Below are positions 9,774 to 30,165 of a DNA stretch of 41,830 nt, one piece after another; the stretch's first letter is position 1; each line of letters begins with the position of its first letter. The position numbers were made by a program, and so were the translations under genes. The notes beneath the pieces are model-generated. The model was not told the origin of the DNA, did no database searches, and saw only the letters and a program-made list of their open reading frames with translations. This DNA comes from an uncultured Bacteroides sp. (GTDB taxonomy: Bacteria > Bacteroidota > Bacteroidia > Bacteroidales > Bacteroidaceae), in NCBI GenBank assembly GCA_947074275.1, contig CAMTPA010000023.1, positions 1 through 41,830 on the forward strand, read 5' to 3'.

Positions 9774-11399
9774 ATGGAAAACACAGGGTTGCATTGGATT
9801 GATTATGGCATTGTAATTGCGTCTATTTTATTCGCTATCGGTATAGGATATTATTTTGCTCATCGCCAAAAAGGCACAGAGCAATATTTTGCAGGTGGAC
9901 GGAACATCCCTTCGTGGGCTATCGGAATGTCTATCTTTGCCACACTTATCAGCAGTGTCACATTTTTGGCTTATCCCGGTTCGGGCTATGCAGGCGACTG
10001 GATTCTGCTGGTGCAAGGAATGATGGTGCCACTTGTGCTGATTTGCATCATCGGTTTTATTGTGCCGCTGTTTCGCAAAGTCATCCGGCTTAGTGTATAT
10101 GAATATTTTGAAAAGCGATTCGGGCTATTCGCTCGTTTCTATGGTTCGTCGGCCTTTGTGTTAGGGCACTTTGCAAAAATGGGAACTGTACTCTTTTTGG
10201 TGAGCCTTGCAATGAGCCGTTTTATGGATATGGATATTATGCTCATCATCTTGGTGCTGGGCATTGCCATCACTGCTCTTACATTGTTAGGTGGTATAGA
10301 GGCAGTTATCTGGATGGATGTAATACAAGGGTTTATGCTTATTTTGGGAGGAGTGATCTGTATCTCTATCTTATTGATGCGTCCCGACAATGGCTTAGCC
10401 AACGTAGGTACAGAAATTGTGTCACAAGTGAAATCGGCCAATTATTCGTGGGACTTTGCCGAAGCCACCTTTTGGGTGTTAGCATTCAACGGTGTGTTTT
10501 ATGCCATTCAGAAATATGGTACCGACCAAACCATCGTGCAACGCTACATCACCGCCAAAGATGACAAATCGGCTAAGCGCGCTGCATACATAGGCGTGTT
10601 TACGAGCTTGCCTATTTGGACACTGTTTATGATTATTGGCATCGCTTTGTTGGTGTTCTATCGTTCGAACGTAGAGCCAGGACTGCCCGATGGACTGAAA
10701 GCAGACGAAATATTTCCTTATTTCATCTCTACTCAGTTGCCCGTAGGCATCAAAGGATTGATTATTGCAGCATTGGCGGCAGGGGCAATATCAAGTTTAG
10801 ACTCAGACATCAACTGCTTGGCAGCAATCGGTGTACAAGACTATTATTTGAAACTAAAACCGAAGACCGAAGACAAAAAGCAATTGAGAGTGGGCAGATA
10901 CATTGTGTTCATAGCTGGAATTGCTGCAATGGGCGTATCGATGCTGTATGCAATGTGGGAAGGCGAAGGCGTGCTTGGAGTGGTGTTTCAGATTTATGCT
11001 ATATTTTCGGCTGGTATCGTAGGTATCTTGCTTTTGGGGCTTTTCTCGAAACGTGCCAACAAACAAGGTTTGTATTGGGGCATCGGTGCAGCCATCCTAT
11101 TCACCGCTTATGCTATGCTCACCTCTACACCCATCGGCGTAGGTACATCCAAACGCATCTTGCTCGATTTGGGCAGCTGGAACTACACGCACCACAAATT
11201 GATGTTGGGTGTATATAGCCACATCATCTTATTTGTAGTGGCCTACGTAGCCAGTCTGTTTTATTTTAAAGAGTACGCCTCGGATGAACTGACCATTCAC
11301 GGCTATCTGAAGATGAAGAAAGAAGAAAAACAAACTGCTTTGGGCAATCAGCAAGTAGAAAACACGCTGGCTTGCGAAGCGGAAATAAATACTAAATAA
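9774..11399 (+). CDS. Sodium:solute symporter (SSS family)
   Basis: FAGGRNIPSWAIGMSIFATLISSVTFLAYPGSGYAGDW, multi-TM, GTDQTIVQRYITAKD. Confidence 0.93.
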   Translation: MENTGLHWIDYGIVIASILFAIGIGYYFAHRQKGTEQYFAGGRNIPSWAIGMSIFATLISSVTFLAYPGSGYAGDWILLVQGMMVPLVLICIIGFIVPLFRKVIRLSVYEYFEKRFGLFARFYGSSAFVLGHFAKMGTVLFLVSLAMSRFMDMDIMLIILVLGIAITALTLLGGIEAVIWMDVIQGFMLILGGVICISILLMRPDNGLANVGTEIVSQVKSANYSWDFAEATFWVLAFNGVFYAIQKYGTDQTIVQRYITAKDDKSAKRAAYIGVFTSLPIWTLFMIIGIALLVFYRSNVEPGLPDGLKADEIFPYFISTQLPVGIKGLIIAALAAGAISSLDSDINCLAAIGVQDYYLKLKPKTEDKKQLRVGRYIVFIAGIAAMGVSMLYAMWEGEGVLGVVFQIYAIFSAGIVGILLLGLFSKRANKQGLYWGIGAAILFTAYAMLTSTPIGVGTSKRILLDLGSWNYTHHKLMLGVYSHIILFVVAYVASLFYFKEYASDELTIHGYLKMKKEEKQTALGNQQVENTLACEAEINTK

Positions 11400-11412
11400 A
11401 CAAAGAAAAGAA

Positions 11413-12558
11413 ATGAAAAGTATCAAACTATTGCAGCCCTCTAAAATAGAGTTCGGAACTGGCTGCATCGAGCGTTTTGTTGAAGACTTTACAACTTTGC
11501 CCTATAAGAAGCTGATGATATTGACAGCTCCTCCTATTCTGCCATTGATTCAGCCAACCATCGAGAAGCTTGTGGCCAACGGTGTAACGGTATCTGTCTA
11601 CGACCAAATTCTGGCCGAACCGACGTTGAGCGATTTCAATTCTATTTTAGAGAAAGCGCGCGAACTACAAATAGATAGCGTGGCAGGTATCGGAGGTGGA
11701 AGTGTGCTCGATGTAGCCAAACTGCTTGGTGCATTGGTTTATAGCGACCAAAAAGCATCCGACGTTTTTGGTATTGGCTTTATCAAGAAAAAAGGCATTT
11801 GGATGGCTTGCATCCCCACCACCGCAGGCACAGGTAGCGAAGTGTCTCCAAACTCCATATTACTTGACGAGGAAGAGCATCTGAAAAAAGGAATTGTATC
11901 TCCTTATTTGGTTGCAGACGTGGTATATATTGACCCTAAACTCACCTGCACTGTGCCTCCTAAAATAACAGCCGAAACGGGAATGGATGCACTTTCGCAT
12001 TGCATCGAAGCGTATACTAATAAGTTTGCTCACGAAGTGATAGATTGCTATGCGCTCGAAGGAATTCGCCTCATTGCAGCCAATCTTGCCAAAGCGGTGA
12101 AAAACGGCAACGACATTGAAGCACGCGAAGCACTTTGCTTAGGAAGCTACTATGGAGGTTTGTGTTTGGGGCCTGTAAATACAGCGGCAGTTCACGCATT
12201 ATCTTACCCTTTGGGCGGTGAATACCACATCTCACACGGTTTGTCGAACGCTATTTTATTGCCCCCCGTTATGGCATACAATATAGAAACCAACATTGGC
12301 AAATATGCCAACATCGCTCGTGCGTTTGGTGTGGCCGATCAAGGCAGCGAAAAAGCAACAGCCGAAGCAGGTATCGAGTTTATTACACAATTATCCAAAG
12401 ATTGCGGTATTCCTACCACACTATCCGAAATTGGTATATCGTCCGATAAGGTAGATGAATTGGCAGCTTCGGCTATGAAGGTGACACGCCTATTAGTGAA
12501 CAACCCACGAGAAATGACCGTAGAGGCAGCCACAGAGATTTACGAACAACTGTTTTAA
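11413..12558 (+). CDS. Iron-containing alcohol dehydrogenase
   Basis: GIGGGSVLDVAKLLG, IPTTAGTGSEVSP, TGMDALSHCIEAYTNK, HALSYPLGGEYHISHG. Confidence 0.94.
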   Translation: MKSIKLLQPSKIEFGTGCIERFVEDFTTLPYKKLMILTAPPILPLIQPTIEKLVANGVTVSVYDQILAEPTLSDFNSILEKARELQIDSVAGIGGGSVLDVAKLLGALVYSDQKASDVFGIGFIKKKGIWMACIPTTAGTGSEVSPNSILLDEEEHLKKGIVSPYLVADVVYIDPKLTCTVPPKITAETGMDALSHCIEAYTNKFAHEVIDCYALEGIRLIAANLAKAVKNGNDIEAREALCLGSYYGGLCLGPVNTAAVHALSYPLGGEYHISHGLSNAILLPPVMAYNIETNIGKYANIARAFGVADQGSEKATAEAGIEFITQLSKDCGIPTTLSEIGISSDKVDELAASAMKVTRLLVNNPREMTVEAATEIYEQLF

Positions 12559-12581
12559 ACACCCCACACACAAGATTGACT

Positions 12582-13622
12582 ATGATTTTACCAATATTAG
12601 CCATTACAATGGGCGACCCCGCTGGCATAGGTCCAGAGATTGTAGCCGAAGCATTTTGCAACGATATTACCTATCAGCAATGTCGCCCCGTGGTGACAGG
12701 CGATGCAGCGGTGATGAGAAAAGCAATCAAACTTTTGAATCTTCCGTTGAATGTCAATGCAATAGACAACGTATCGGAAGCCAAGTTCGAGAAAGGCACT
12801 ATGGATGTCATCGACTTGAAGTTGATTGATATAGACCGACACGAGTTTGGACAAGTATCGGCACAATGCGGAAATGCCGCTTTTCAATCGGTAGTAAAGG
12901 CCATTGAGCTGGCTATGAGCAATGAAGTAGACGGCACTGTCACTGCACCACTCAACAAAGAATCGCTCAATTTGGCTGGACACCACTTTTCGGGGCATAC
13001 AGAAATATATGCACACTACACCCATACCAAAAAGTATGCGATGCTACTGGCTGATGAGTTTTTGCGCGTGATTCACGTCTCTACCCACGTGCCACTGCGT
13101 GAAGCCTGCGATTTAGTGAAAAAAGAGCGTATTATAACAGTTGCTTTGCTGCTCGAAGATGCGTGTCGCCAGTTTGGTATCGACAAACCCAAAATTGGTA
13201 TCGCAGGCCTCAACCCTCACTCCAGCGACAATGGTTTGTTTGGCTACGAAGAGGCACAAGAGATTATCCCTGCCGTAGAGGAGCTGAAAGCGCAAGGACA
13301 CTTGGTAGAAGGCCCTGTGCCTCCCGATACTCTTTTCGCCAAAGCCAAAGGCGGATTCTTTGACGGCTGTGTAGCTATGTATCACGACCAAGGACATATT
13401 CCATTCAAAGTAGTTGGGTTCAACTGGAATCGTGAAACTAAGAAAATGGAGAGCGTAAAAGGGGTGAATATCACACTCGGTTTGCCAATCATACGTGTGT
13501 CGGTAGATCACGGCACAGCATTCGATGTAGCGGGCAAAGGCATAGCAAGTCCCGAAGCACTACTGTTATCAATAGATTATGCCAGCAAAATGGCAGAAAA
13601 CCGCAAAAAGGATTTAAAGTGA
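12582..13622 (+). CDS. PdxA-family 4-phospho(hydroxythreonine/threonate/erythronate) dehydrogenase
   Basis: ITMGDPAGIGPEIV, TAPLNKESLNLAGHHFSGHTE, GLNPHSSDNG, MYHDQGHIPFK. ORF track begins at a TTG (12576); ATG is at 12582. Confidence 0.93.
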   Translation: MILPILAITMGDPAGIGPEIVAEAFCNDITYQQCRPVVTGDAAVMRKAIKLLNLPLNVNAIDNVSEAKFEKGTMDVIDLKLIDIDRHEFGQVSAQCGNAAFQSVVKAIELAMSNEVDGTVTAPLNKESLNLAGHHFSGHTEIYAHYTHTKKYAMLLADEFLRVIHVSTHVPLREACDLVKKERIITVALLLEDACRQFGIDKPKIGIAGLNPHSSDNGLFGYEEAQEIIPAVEELKAQGHLVEGPVPPDTLFAKAKGGFFDGCVAMYHDQGHIPFKVVGFNWNRETKKMESVKGVNITLGLPIIRVSVDHGTAFDVAGKGIASPEALLLSIDYASKMAENRKKDLK

Positions 13623-14752
13623 TTGCCGTTATAGCCGACGATATAACAGGAGCTGCCGAAATTGCAGGTATCGGTTTCGATTATGGCTTGAAGGTGATAC
13701 TTACGCAATCGATAGAAACGGAAATTGCACCGTGCGATGTGTTGGTGTGTATCACCAACACACGCTCTATGCGTCGCGATGATGCCATCAACGAATCGCT
13801 ACGGGTGGGTAAAAGGCTCACCCAAATAGGCGTTGAGCATATCTTCAAAAAAACAGATTCGGTGCTGCGTGGACACGTGGCAGCCGAACTGAAAGCATTG
13901 ATGGATGCCACAGGAAAAACATCCGCTTTGCTACTCCCGGCCAACCCTGCTCTTGGACGACAGATTATAGATGGGATTTACTATGTAAATAAAGTGCCTA
14001 TTACGCAAACATCATTTTCTTACGACCCTGAATTTCCTGCAAAAAGCGATGAGGCCATAAAATTATTGGGTGAAGGCATACTAATAAACCCACACGAAAC
14101 TTTGCCTACCTCCGATTGCTCCATCGCAATAGGAAACATAGCAACCGAAGAAGATTTTATAGATTATTGCAAGCTACTAAACAACACCTTATTGCCAGCA
14201 GGTGGAGGTAGTTTTTTTAAAGCGTTCTTGAAACAACAGTTTCCACACGCACTATTTAAACAGATTGAGAAAAAGATAAAACTTGGTAAGTTGTTGTTGA
14301 TTTGTGGAAGCACTATCAAACACAACGCACTACTCTGCGAACTCGAAGCAGCCAAAGTGCCTATCGAGTCGATGCCAACAGAGGTATATCACGGAGAAGT
14401 ATCGAGCGAAAAGTGGATTGAATATCTTAACACACAATATGCACTACACGGCAACTTGGTAGTAATTATTAATCAACCCATCTCGCACGATCCAGCCTAT
14501 GCAATGCGTCTAAAGCAAATTATGGCAAAGGTATGTCAATCGGTCGTCAGCCAACACGCTGTAAAAGAACTTATTATAGAGGGAGGAGCAACAGCCTACG
14601 AAGTGATAAGTGCAATGCAGTGGCAAGCCTTTGAGGTAGTAGGCATTATGACTACAGGTGTTATAAAGCTAAAGCCTCAAAACAGTACAGAGCTACAACT
14701 CACGCTAAAACCTGGTAGCTATCAGTGGCCAGAGGAAGTGTTGATATTATAG
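13619..14752 (+). CDS. Four-carbon acid sugar kinase family protein (DUF1537/OtnK-DtnK type)
   Basis: IAVIADDITGAAEIAG, HIFKKTDSVLRGHVAAEL, LLPANPALGRQIIDG, LIIEGGATAYEV; GTG start overlapping the upstream stop. Confidence 0.9.
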   Translation: MIAVIADDITGAAEIAGIGFDYGLKVILTQSIETEIAPCDVLVCITNTRSMRRDDAINESLRVGKRLTQIGVEHIFKKTDSVLRGHVAAELKALMDATGKTSALLLPANPALGRQIIDGIYYVNKVPITQTSFSYDPEFPAKSDEAIKLLGEGILINPHETLPTSDCSIAIGNIATEEDFIDYCKLLNNTLLPAGGGSFFKAFLKQQFPHALFKQIEKKIKLGKLLLICGSTIKHNALLCELEAAKVPIESMPTEVYHGEVSSEKWIEYLNTQYALHGNLVVIINQPISHDPAYAMRLKQIMAKVCQSVVSQHAVKELIIEGGATAYEVISAMQWQAFEVVGIMTTGVIKLKPQNSTELQLTLKPGSYQWPEEVLIL

Positions 14753-17318: not shown

Positions 17319-17372
17319 TAGAATAAAATGAACCAAAGAAAAAGTAATTGTGTTTATTCAAATAAAACAATT

Positions 17373-17807
17373 ATGAAGTTCGATGTAGCACATATCCACC
17401 CAATGTTGGTTCATTTTCCTATCGCCCTTACTTTGTTGGGAGTTTTACTATCCGCTTTTAAAACTTTCAAACCCAATAAGTTTAAATATCCTTGTGGAGA
17501 AATAATTCTCTATTTTGCCACATTCTCGGCCATACTTGCTTTGATAGCGGGCAATAATTTTACTCCGCATTTCACCAATCCCATATTGGCGCAAGCAAAA
17601 AGTATCCATAGCACTTTTGCAGGAATTACGCTCACTTTGCTTTGCATAGCCTCAGCAGGATATTTAGCGCGCTACATATTCAAAAGCCACTCATCATTAT
17701 TCGAGAAGTTAGGATGGGCGTTTTATCTATTAGCAGCCATATCGGTAGCTATCACAGGATTTTTAGGAGGTTCTTTGGTTTATAACGATTTATTGCATTT
17801 ACAATAA
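17373..17807 (+). CDS. DUF2231-type small membrane protein
   Basis: MKFDVAHIHPMLVHFPIALTLLGVL plus further TM segments; internal ATG 17373 matches the family N-terminus. Confidence 0.75.
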   Translation: MKFDVAHIHPMLVHFPIALTLLGVLLSAFKTFKPNKFKYPCGEIILYFATFSAILALIAGNNFTPHFTNPILAQAKSIHSTFAGITLTLLCIASAGYLARYIFKSHSSLFEKLGWAFYLLAAISVAITGFLGGSLVYNDLLHLQ

Positions 17808-17830
17808 CATACTAAAAACGAAATATACCT

Positions 17831-17908
17831 AAAAGACGAAGGCTACTCATCACGAGCAGCCTTCGTCTTTTATCGTTAACCTTAAAATCTAATACTTATG
17901 AAAAAACA
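17831..17908 (-). ncRNA. Candidate small RNA A (minus strand)
   Basis: Minus-strand TATATTTG at 17914-17921; transcript ends in a perfect 14-bp stem hairpin AAAAGACGAAGGCT...AGCCTTCGTCTTTT (17831-17871). 5' region shared with candidate B. Hairpin also sits behind the DUF2231 gene and may terminate it. Confidence 0.5.
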
Positions 17909-18141
17909 CAATGCAAATATATAGATTATCAAAGCATTACCCACAAAACCATCTTTTTAAATATCGATTTACAACATTGTTTAATAAGCACAATCCATCA
18001 GTTAACTATTAACACACTAACAGTTAACTATTAACTATACTAATAAACATTTGACGCAGAAACAAAAGAAAGAAATAGAAGTATTACAAAGAAAAGAGAA
18101 GCAATTGATTCATTTTGAAATACAAGCAAACTTATGGGCAT

Positions 18142-18207
18142 AAAAAAAGGCTATCTATCCCAGACAGCCAATCTTTGTTAACCTTAAATCTAATACTATG
18201 AAAAACA
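18142..18207 (-). ncRNA. Candidate small RNA B (minus strand)
   Basis: Minus-strand TTG-N19-TATATTTG (18213-18242); terminator GGCTGTCT-GGGAT-AGATAGCC followed by TTTTTTT (18142-18169). Confidence 0.6.
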
Positions 18208-18538
18208 CAGTGCAAATATATAGACTTATCGTGTATATCCAACACTTTATCGAATAAAACTCATTGATTATAACACTGTTTAATACCACAAAACCAGCTG
18301 TTAACAGTTGAACCCATAACCGTTAACAGTTAGCAAGAAAAAGTAACAAAGTTGAGAAAAGCTTGATTCGTTTATAAATGCACACTTACTTATCAACTAT
18401 ATTTTAGATTAAAATCAACTGTTAACAGTCAATCTCTCAATAGTGAACAGTTATCCCATCAACAATTAACAATCAATCGAACATCTGTTAACTACTGACT
18501 TCGCCTATACAAACCAGTAACACTGCGCTTATTTATGA

Positions 18539-18814
18539 CTATTCGACAATATCATTTAGTTCGGGATGACGCTGAAGCCAACGCACAGCAAAACTACACG
18601 TAGCTTTGGGTTTCAATCCATTTTCCAAAGCATAATTGTAGGCCGCAGTAACAAGTGCAGCAGCAATACCTTTCCCTTCCAAAGGACGTGGAACAATCGT
18701 ATGAATAATATCCAAACTACCATTTAGTATGCGATATTGAGCAAAGGCTGTTCGTCCTTCCACTTCAGTTTTAAACATCCGCTGTGCGGGTTGATGAACA
18801 ATTTCGTAATCCAT
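18539..18814 (-). CDS. GNAT-type N-acetyltransferase (short YjdJ-like)
   Basis: IIHTIVPRPLEGKGIAAALVTAAYNYALENGLKPKATCSFAVRWLQRHPE. Confidence 0.88.
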   Translation of the reverse strand: MDYEIVHQPAQRMFKTEVEGRTAFAQYRILNGSLDIIHTIVPRPLEGKGIAAALVTAAYNYALENGLKPKATCSFAVRWLQRHPELNDIVE

Positions 18815-29735: not shown

Positions 29736-29836
29736 CATCCGATTAATCAATGGCAAATGTTGTATTGTGGAATTTAAAAATTCTATAATGCAACATTTTT
29801 CTATTATCAAATGCAGTAATTAGAAAAGAATATTCA

Positions 29837-29844
29837 TATCTTTG
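29837..29844 (+). promoter_or_regulatory. -7 element upstream of cobalamin riboswitch
   Basis: TATCTTTG just 5' of the aptamer; -33 element weak. Confidence 0.45.
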
Positions 29845-29848
29845 CGGC

Positions 29849-30031
29849 GTATTGGTTTGCTTATACTCTATCTCAGAGTATGCAATTAAAAGGGAATCAG
29901 GTGAAAATCCTGAACAGTCCCGCTGCTGTAAGTTCCATACAAGGTTATAGACAAAACACTGCTTAAAGCCACTGATTGAAAACAATCGGGAAGGTAGTCG
30001 ATAACTGGAACAAGTCAGAAGACCTGCCATA
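29849..30031 (+). promoter_or_regulatory. Cobalamin riboswitch aptamer
   Basis: AAAAGGGAATCAGGTGAAAATCCTGAACAGTCCCGCTGCTGTAA ... GCCACTGATTGAAAACAATCGGGAAGG ... GTCAGAAGACCTGCC: classic B12-box architecture. Confidence 0.95.
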
Positions 30032-30165
30032 CAATCTTTTTTCATTGCTTTCGAGGAAAAAGCGTTGAATCTAATGAGTGGATACTACTCTTATCCCACA
30101 TCATTTCATTCACACTAAGACTTATAGAAAGTAACATCTCAAATAAACTCTGCCAAGTTTATTTT

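Follow-up and report, generated by a model that had tools for sequence, protein, structure and literature searches.

The window (the whole stretch of 41,830 nucleotides that was analysed) holds two complete small RNA (sRNA) units, A and B, both on the minus strand of the intergenic region between the gene for a DUF2231 membrane protein (17328-17807, plus strand) and an acetyltransferase gene (18539-18814, minus strand). The two lie about 300 bp apart and are built alike. Each is made of a promoter box TATATTTG, four nucleotides (CATT in unit A, CACT in unit B), a G start, a common A/U-rich and unpaired 5′ stretch of 32-35 nt, a hairpin, and a T-rich tail (Table 1). Elsewhere in the window there is a cobalamin riboswitch (29836-30045, plus strand, 103 bits) ahead of a gene for a 696-aa product, as well as a cluster of genes on the plus strand (9774-14752) for an SSF symporter, an iron alcohol dehydrogenase, a PdxA-like protein and SBD_N/NBD_C proteins, which we take to resemble a pathway of four-carbon sugar-acid catabolism.

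Table 1. Features of sRNA units A and B and of their upstream regions (window coordinates)
Feature	Position	Strand	Evidence
sRNA B, canonical FopS, predicted length ~66 nt	18143..18208	-	Rfam RF04319 match 18139-18208
B unpaired 5′ region with R1/R1′ seed, GTGTTTTTCATAGTATTAGATTTAAGGTTAAC	18177..18208	-	predicted pairing with susC start regions
B terminator hairpin, then TTTTTTT	18149..18169	-	fold and terminator-like site
B -7 promoter box TATATTTG; TTG 19 nt upstream fits a -33 box	18213..18220	-	sequence
B conserved upstream element ATTAAACAGTGTTATAA, -76 to -60	18268..18284	-	top score in 2.3 Mb of genome
B GTTAAC-rich repeat block with TGTTAA boxes	18290..18332	-	sequence comparison
sRNA A, FopS-related variant subtype, predicted length ~78-80 nt	17830..17909	-	Rfam RF04319 match 17828-17909, below cut-off; kept in 7 genomes
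A unpaired 5′ region GTGTTTTTTCATAAGTATTAGATTTTAAGGTTAAC, three single-base insertions relative to B	17875..17909	-	sequence
A terminator hairpin, core GGCTGCTCGTGATGAGTAGCC, A/T-flanked on both sides	17830..17872	-	fold, terminator-like site, conservation
A -7 promoter box TATATTTG	17914..17921	-	sequence
A conserved upstream element ATTAAACAATGTTGTAA, -76 to -60	17969..17985	-	second-best score in 2.3 Mb
A GTTAAC-rich repeat block, 299 bp from the block of B	17991..18033	-	sequence

FopS was introduced in 2025 as a “family of paralogous sRNAs” with 14 copies in Bacteroides thetaiotaomicron, four of them divergent, where these RNAs are bound by RbpB, induced by bile, and repress the translation of SusC through base pairing at its start codon (Ruttiger et al., PMC11697453). 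Against the FopS model of Rfam release 15 (RF04319, curated cut-off 56 bits), unit B scores 78.9 bits (E = 4e-10 over the whole window) and unit A 49.5 bits (E 5.9e-6, searched in 1.2 kb). As this second score is below the cut-off, A is termed here a FopS-related variant; its orthologue in L053 reaches 55.0 bits. The preliminary description had proposed a tandem pair of minus-strand sRNAs with promoters, a common 5′ region and separate hairpins; all of these read as described, and the Rfam E-values exclude chance. It had also left the choice between a paralogous Bacteroides sRNA family and a new one. The Rfam match and the further FopS copies found in the same genome settle this in favor of the former, and the latter is not supported. 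Judged by sequence, A and B are thus a pair of sRNAs of the known FopS family.

The window's genome is a 3.3 Mb draft in 161 contigs, of which 2.3 Mb (~70%) was read. In addition to the FopS copies, it encodes two RRM_1 proteins and true members of two other sRNA families, GibS (144 bits) and BTnc231 (123 bits, C87:4049-4120, minus strand). The 5′ region of the latter is FopS-like, so that FopS, GibS and BTnc231 may belong to a single superfamily built on one seed. Four of the FopS matches in this genome are cut by contig ends (C59:2-46, C44:27821-27877, C104:10546-10585 and C96:1-50) because near-identical repeats break short-read assembly, and FopS copy numbers in draft genomes are therefore uncertain.

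One TAnnTTTG promoter box stands ahead of A and one ahead of B, with TATATTTG ending 4 nt before each start. Both promoters are of the canonical sigma-ABfr type rather than PM2, and a search for sigma-70 promoters returned none of relevance. For the preliminary description, a conserved core present equally without promoter and hairpin context would have spoken against the proposal; the box is in fact found 3-5 nt before the start in 90 of 92 FopS copies. Taking the start of the Rfam model as a reference, the 5′ ends fall at 17909 and 18208, one base away from the 17908 and 18207 first proposed. Each predicted RNA carries the R1′ seed at its unpaired 5′ end (exact in B, with three single-base insertions in A) and a single intrinsic terminator hairpin, for total lengths of ~66 nt (B) and ~78 nt (A) compared with the 65-70 nt expected of FopS. 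Four terminator-like sites were observed for 1.0 expected. Compared with shuffled sequences, the fold of A is very stable (z = -6.4) and that of B moderately so (z = -2.0); in the predicted minimum-energy fold, the A seed is unpaired and the B seed weakly paired.

The two hairpins had at first been called unrelated. This holds when A is compared with B, but not if it is taken to mean free variation, as each hairpin is conserved across species and the A stem has compensatory changes. The terminators differ between paralogues and are conserved between orthologues. The A hairpin lies 23 bp past the convergent DUF2231 gene, with an A-run on one side and a T-run on the other. Flanked in this way on both sides, it may be a two-way terminator that also serves this convergent gene.

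The three one-base insertions of unit A (TTTTTT, CATAAG and GATTTTAAGG) recur together with the hairpin core GCTCGTGA in 7 of 160 Bacteroides genomes, with no near-misses of up to three mismatches in these 160 genomes. In six of the seven, a canonical copy on the same strand precedes the A-type copy, which follows ~300-480 bp downstream. The hairpin core is paired in 100% of cells, two of the pairs being changed on both sides. An intermediate form carrying CATAAG only is found in a further 28 genomes out of 151, almost always with the same type of hairpin, and 17 of the 30 loci read have, within ~1.4 kb upstream and in the same orientation, a canonical copy. The intermediate is present in none of the seven A-type genomes, as expected if the two forms are orthologues. 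Restriction of A to the DUF2231 locus was considered and rejected: the pair is beside another gene in G004, and in G122 the A copy is on a contig apart from that genome's DUF2231 gene. In this genus, FopS copies often stand in tandem or in clusters; G003, for instance, has three of them 244 bp apart. On these comparisons, A is a conserved FopS subtype with a re-spaced seed.

What could such RNAs pair with? Their 5′ region is complementary to translation starts of the usual Bacteroides type (TTAAATCTAATACTATGAAAAA and similar). Targets were predicted over 1,647 genes in the 2.3 Mb read, with start codons taken from the longest ORF and a susC set made of the 17 of 28 homologues above the NCBIfam cut-off that are whole within this sequence. 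In this setting, complementarity favors susC start regions over those of all other genes for both B (AUC 0.871, p 7e-8) and A (AUC 0.834, p 1e-6), and the preference persists against signal-peptide-like genes (0.85 for B and 0.80 for A). None of 60 shuffled seeds attained either AUC, the maximum being 0.61 for B and 0.67 for A. Pairing at susC start regions, the published FopS target class, is thus reproduced in silico in another Bacteroides. Among the top 50 predicted targets of each RNA, 17 are common to both (1.5 expected), and the differences track the bases around the AUG. Since the insertions in A change the spacing of its seed, its predicted target set overlaps that of B without being identical to it.

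The region upstream of FopS genes is also conserved. An element ATTAAAC-NN-TGTTATAA (ATTAAACCATGTTATAA, up to 5 mismatches) precedes 78 of 92 non-redundant FopS copies, in 76 of these 78 exactly at -75 or -76. With at most 2 mismatches, it is found in 60 real copies and never in shuffled upstream regions, 8% of which have a site with up to 5 mismatches; because the FopS copies share ancestry, they do not count as independent samples. When the 2.3 Mb were scanned with a profile of the element, the best two sites were those of the window copies (23.7 and 22.1). The next one (16.8) is below the best reversed-control score (18.7), so that within this 2.3 Mb the element exceeds background only at the two FopS genes of the window. 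Copies with a CATGG seed mostly lack the -75 element and have instead a TATGTTNNATAACATA palindrome at about -36 (L003, L021, L039, L040, L043 and L044). The palindrome is present in 6 of 10 CATGG copies versus 4 of 82 others, these four having it at a different position, and this suggests two classes of regulation.

FopS also extends beyond the genus. Matches above the cut-off were found in 20 of 119 Bacteroidales genomes from 17 families besides the window's own, and the family is therefore wider than the Bacteroidaceae named in its original description (PMC11697453). Exact FopS cores occur in 19 viral contigs (IMG/VR), whereas a search of viral contigs for A-type copies gave none. Bacteroides phage BX-TP2 carries an intact FopS (L059:974-1043, 78.9 bits) complete with promoter and -75 element. 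Genes for a DNA methyltransferase and a thymidylate synthase are located near this phage copy.

Taken together, these data are best explained, with a probability of about 0.9, by two separate transcription units giving FopS-family sRNAs that pair at susC starts, the pair having arisen by local duplication and the seed of A having been re-spaced. Each RNA would be transcribed from its own promoter to its own terminator, and its unpaired 5′ 30-35 nt would then pair across the AUG of mRNAs encoding susC-like importers, thereby blocking ribosomes. The RRM protein RbpB, which antagonizes FopS in B. thetaiotaomicron, presumably does the same here. The duplication probably took in the upstream control region, the GTTAAC-rich blocks being spaced like the RNAs themselves, so that the duplicated unit would be RNA plus control region. 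B would have retained the family seed, and A would have gained three insertions that alter the spacing of the seed.

Could A be simply a decaying duplicate, a pseudogene under drift whose promoter and terminator are remnants, beside a B copy that may be functional? Its score under the Rfam cut-off and its three seed insertions are what such decay might leave behind. Yet seven genomes have these insertions and the CTCGTGA hairpin intact amid diverging flanks, the stem keeps its full pairing through compensatory changes, and the seed still prefers susC starts, which together make decay very improbable. Even harder to credit is that the conserved stretch is coding sequence for a short peptide on the plus strand (ATGAAAAA...) rather than a minus-strand RNA. 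Opposite the seed, the plus strand of both A and B does have an ATG with a leader of Bacteroides type, but this is to be expected of an RNA antisense to start regions. The plus-strand frames range from 6 to 45 aa, have the first residues alone in common, and differ between copies, as the preliminary description had already argued from their shifts; moreover, the bases conserved past the ATG are those of the minus-strand TAnnTTTG box. With no common peptide to be found in these frames, the coding explanation was rejected.

The duplicated FopS pair being the preferred reading, a distinct question is whether its -75 element and TGTTAA boxes are mere leftover similarity from recent duplication, which would bear on the control region and leave the identity of the RNAs untouched. 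Being mostly related as paralogues or orthologues, the copies are not independent samples; we nevertheless consider this explanation rather unlikely. When the members of 16 tandem pairs of paralogues are compared, the 17-bp element shows 93% identity versus 58% and 53% in the 25-45 bp flanks; apart from it, only TGTTAA at about -96 and the -33 box have been preserved as blocks. For FopS, a regulator at work during bile exposure has been postulated (PMC11697453), and the ATTAAACNNTGTTATAA element at -75/-76 is a candidate site for it; A and B would then probably be switched together. A broader proposal, tentative and in our view somewhat short of an even chance, is that FopS genes make up a single regulon under an operator of their own (TGTTAA at about -96 plus ATTAAACNNTGTTATAA at about -75), which would be read by a possibly bile-responsive regulator and carried even by phage-borne copies, with the re-spaced seed of tandem partner A shifting repression to another subset of PUL importers.

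FopS is among the few Bacteroides sRNAs whose mechanism has been worked out. The -75 element offers a concrete site to delete and a bait for the regulator, and the A subtype a natural case where one-base seed insertions may split the targets of adjacent paralogues.

Among known systems, BTnc231 (RF04180) has a 5′ stretch that is FopS-like, but the true BTnc231 of this genome is on contig C87, and membership was rejected for both A (21.3 bits) and B (17.6 bits) against a cut-off of 80.4. GibS (RF04182; Ryan et al., 2020, PMC7366714) has the R1 5′ seed in common with A and B, and its hairpin CUGCUUGUGAUAAGUA is similar to the A hairpin CUGCUCGUGAUGAGUAG, a likeness that may hint at a shared origin. 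Contrary to GibS, which is defined by more than 115 bits, two hairpins plus a terminator, and an R2 seed, the two units have no second hairpin and a canonical promoter instead of PM2; with B at 49.6 and A at 39.0 bits for a cut-off of 115, they were rejected as members, the true GibS being located elsewhere in the genome. The likeness to FopS (RF04319, PMC11697453) covers the 5′ seed, the sigma-ABfr promoter, the single terminator hairpin, a length of ~65-80 nt, the multicopy character, and the complementarity to susC-type start regions. A differs in its three conserved one-base seed insertions and sub-cut-off score, and is slightly longer than the published length clusters of 65 and 70 nt (PMC11697453). 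The main text of that article contains neither the tandem order, the -75 element nor the subtype hairpin, and the words “tandem” and “operator” are absent from it. What this locus adds to the known family is thus threefold: A with its variant seed, a tandem arrangement that recurs, and a dedicated upstream element.
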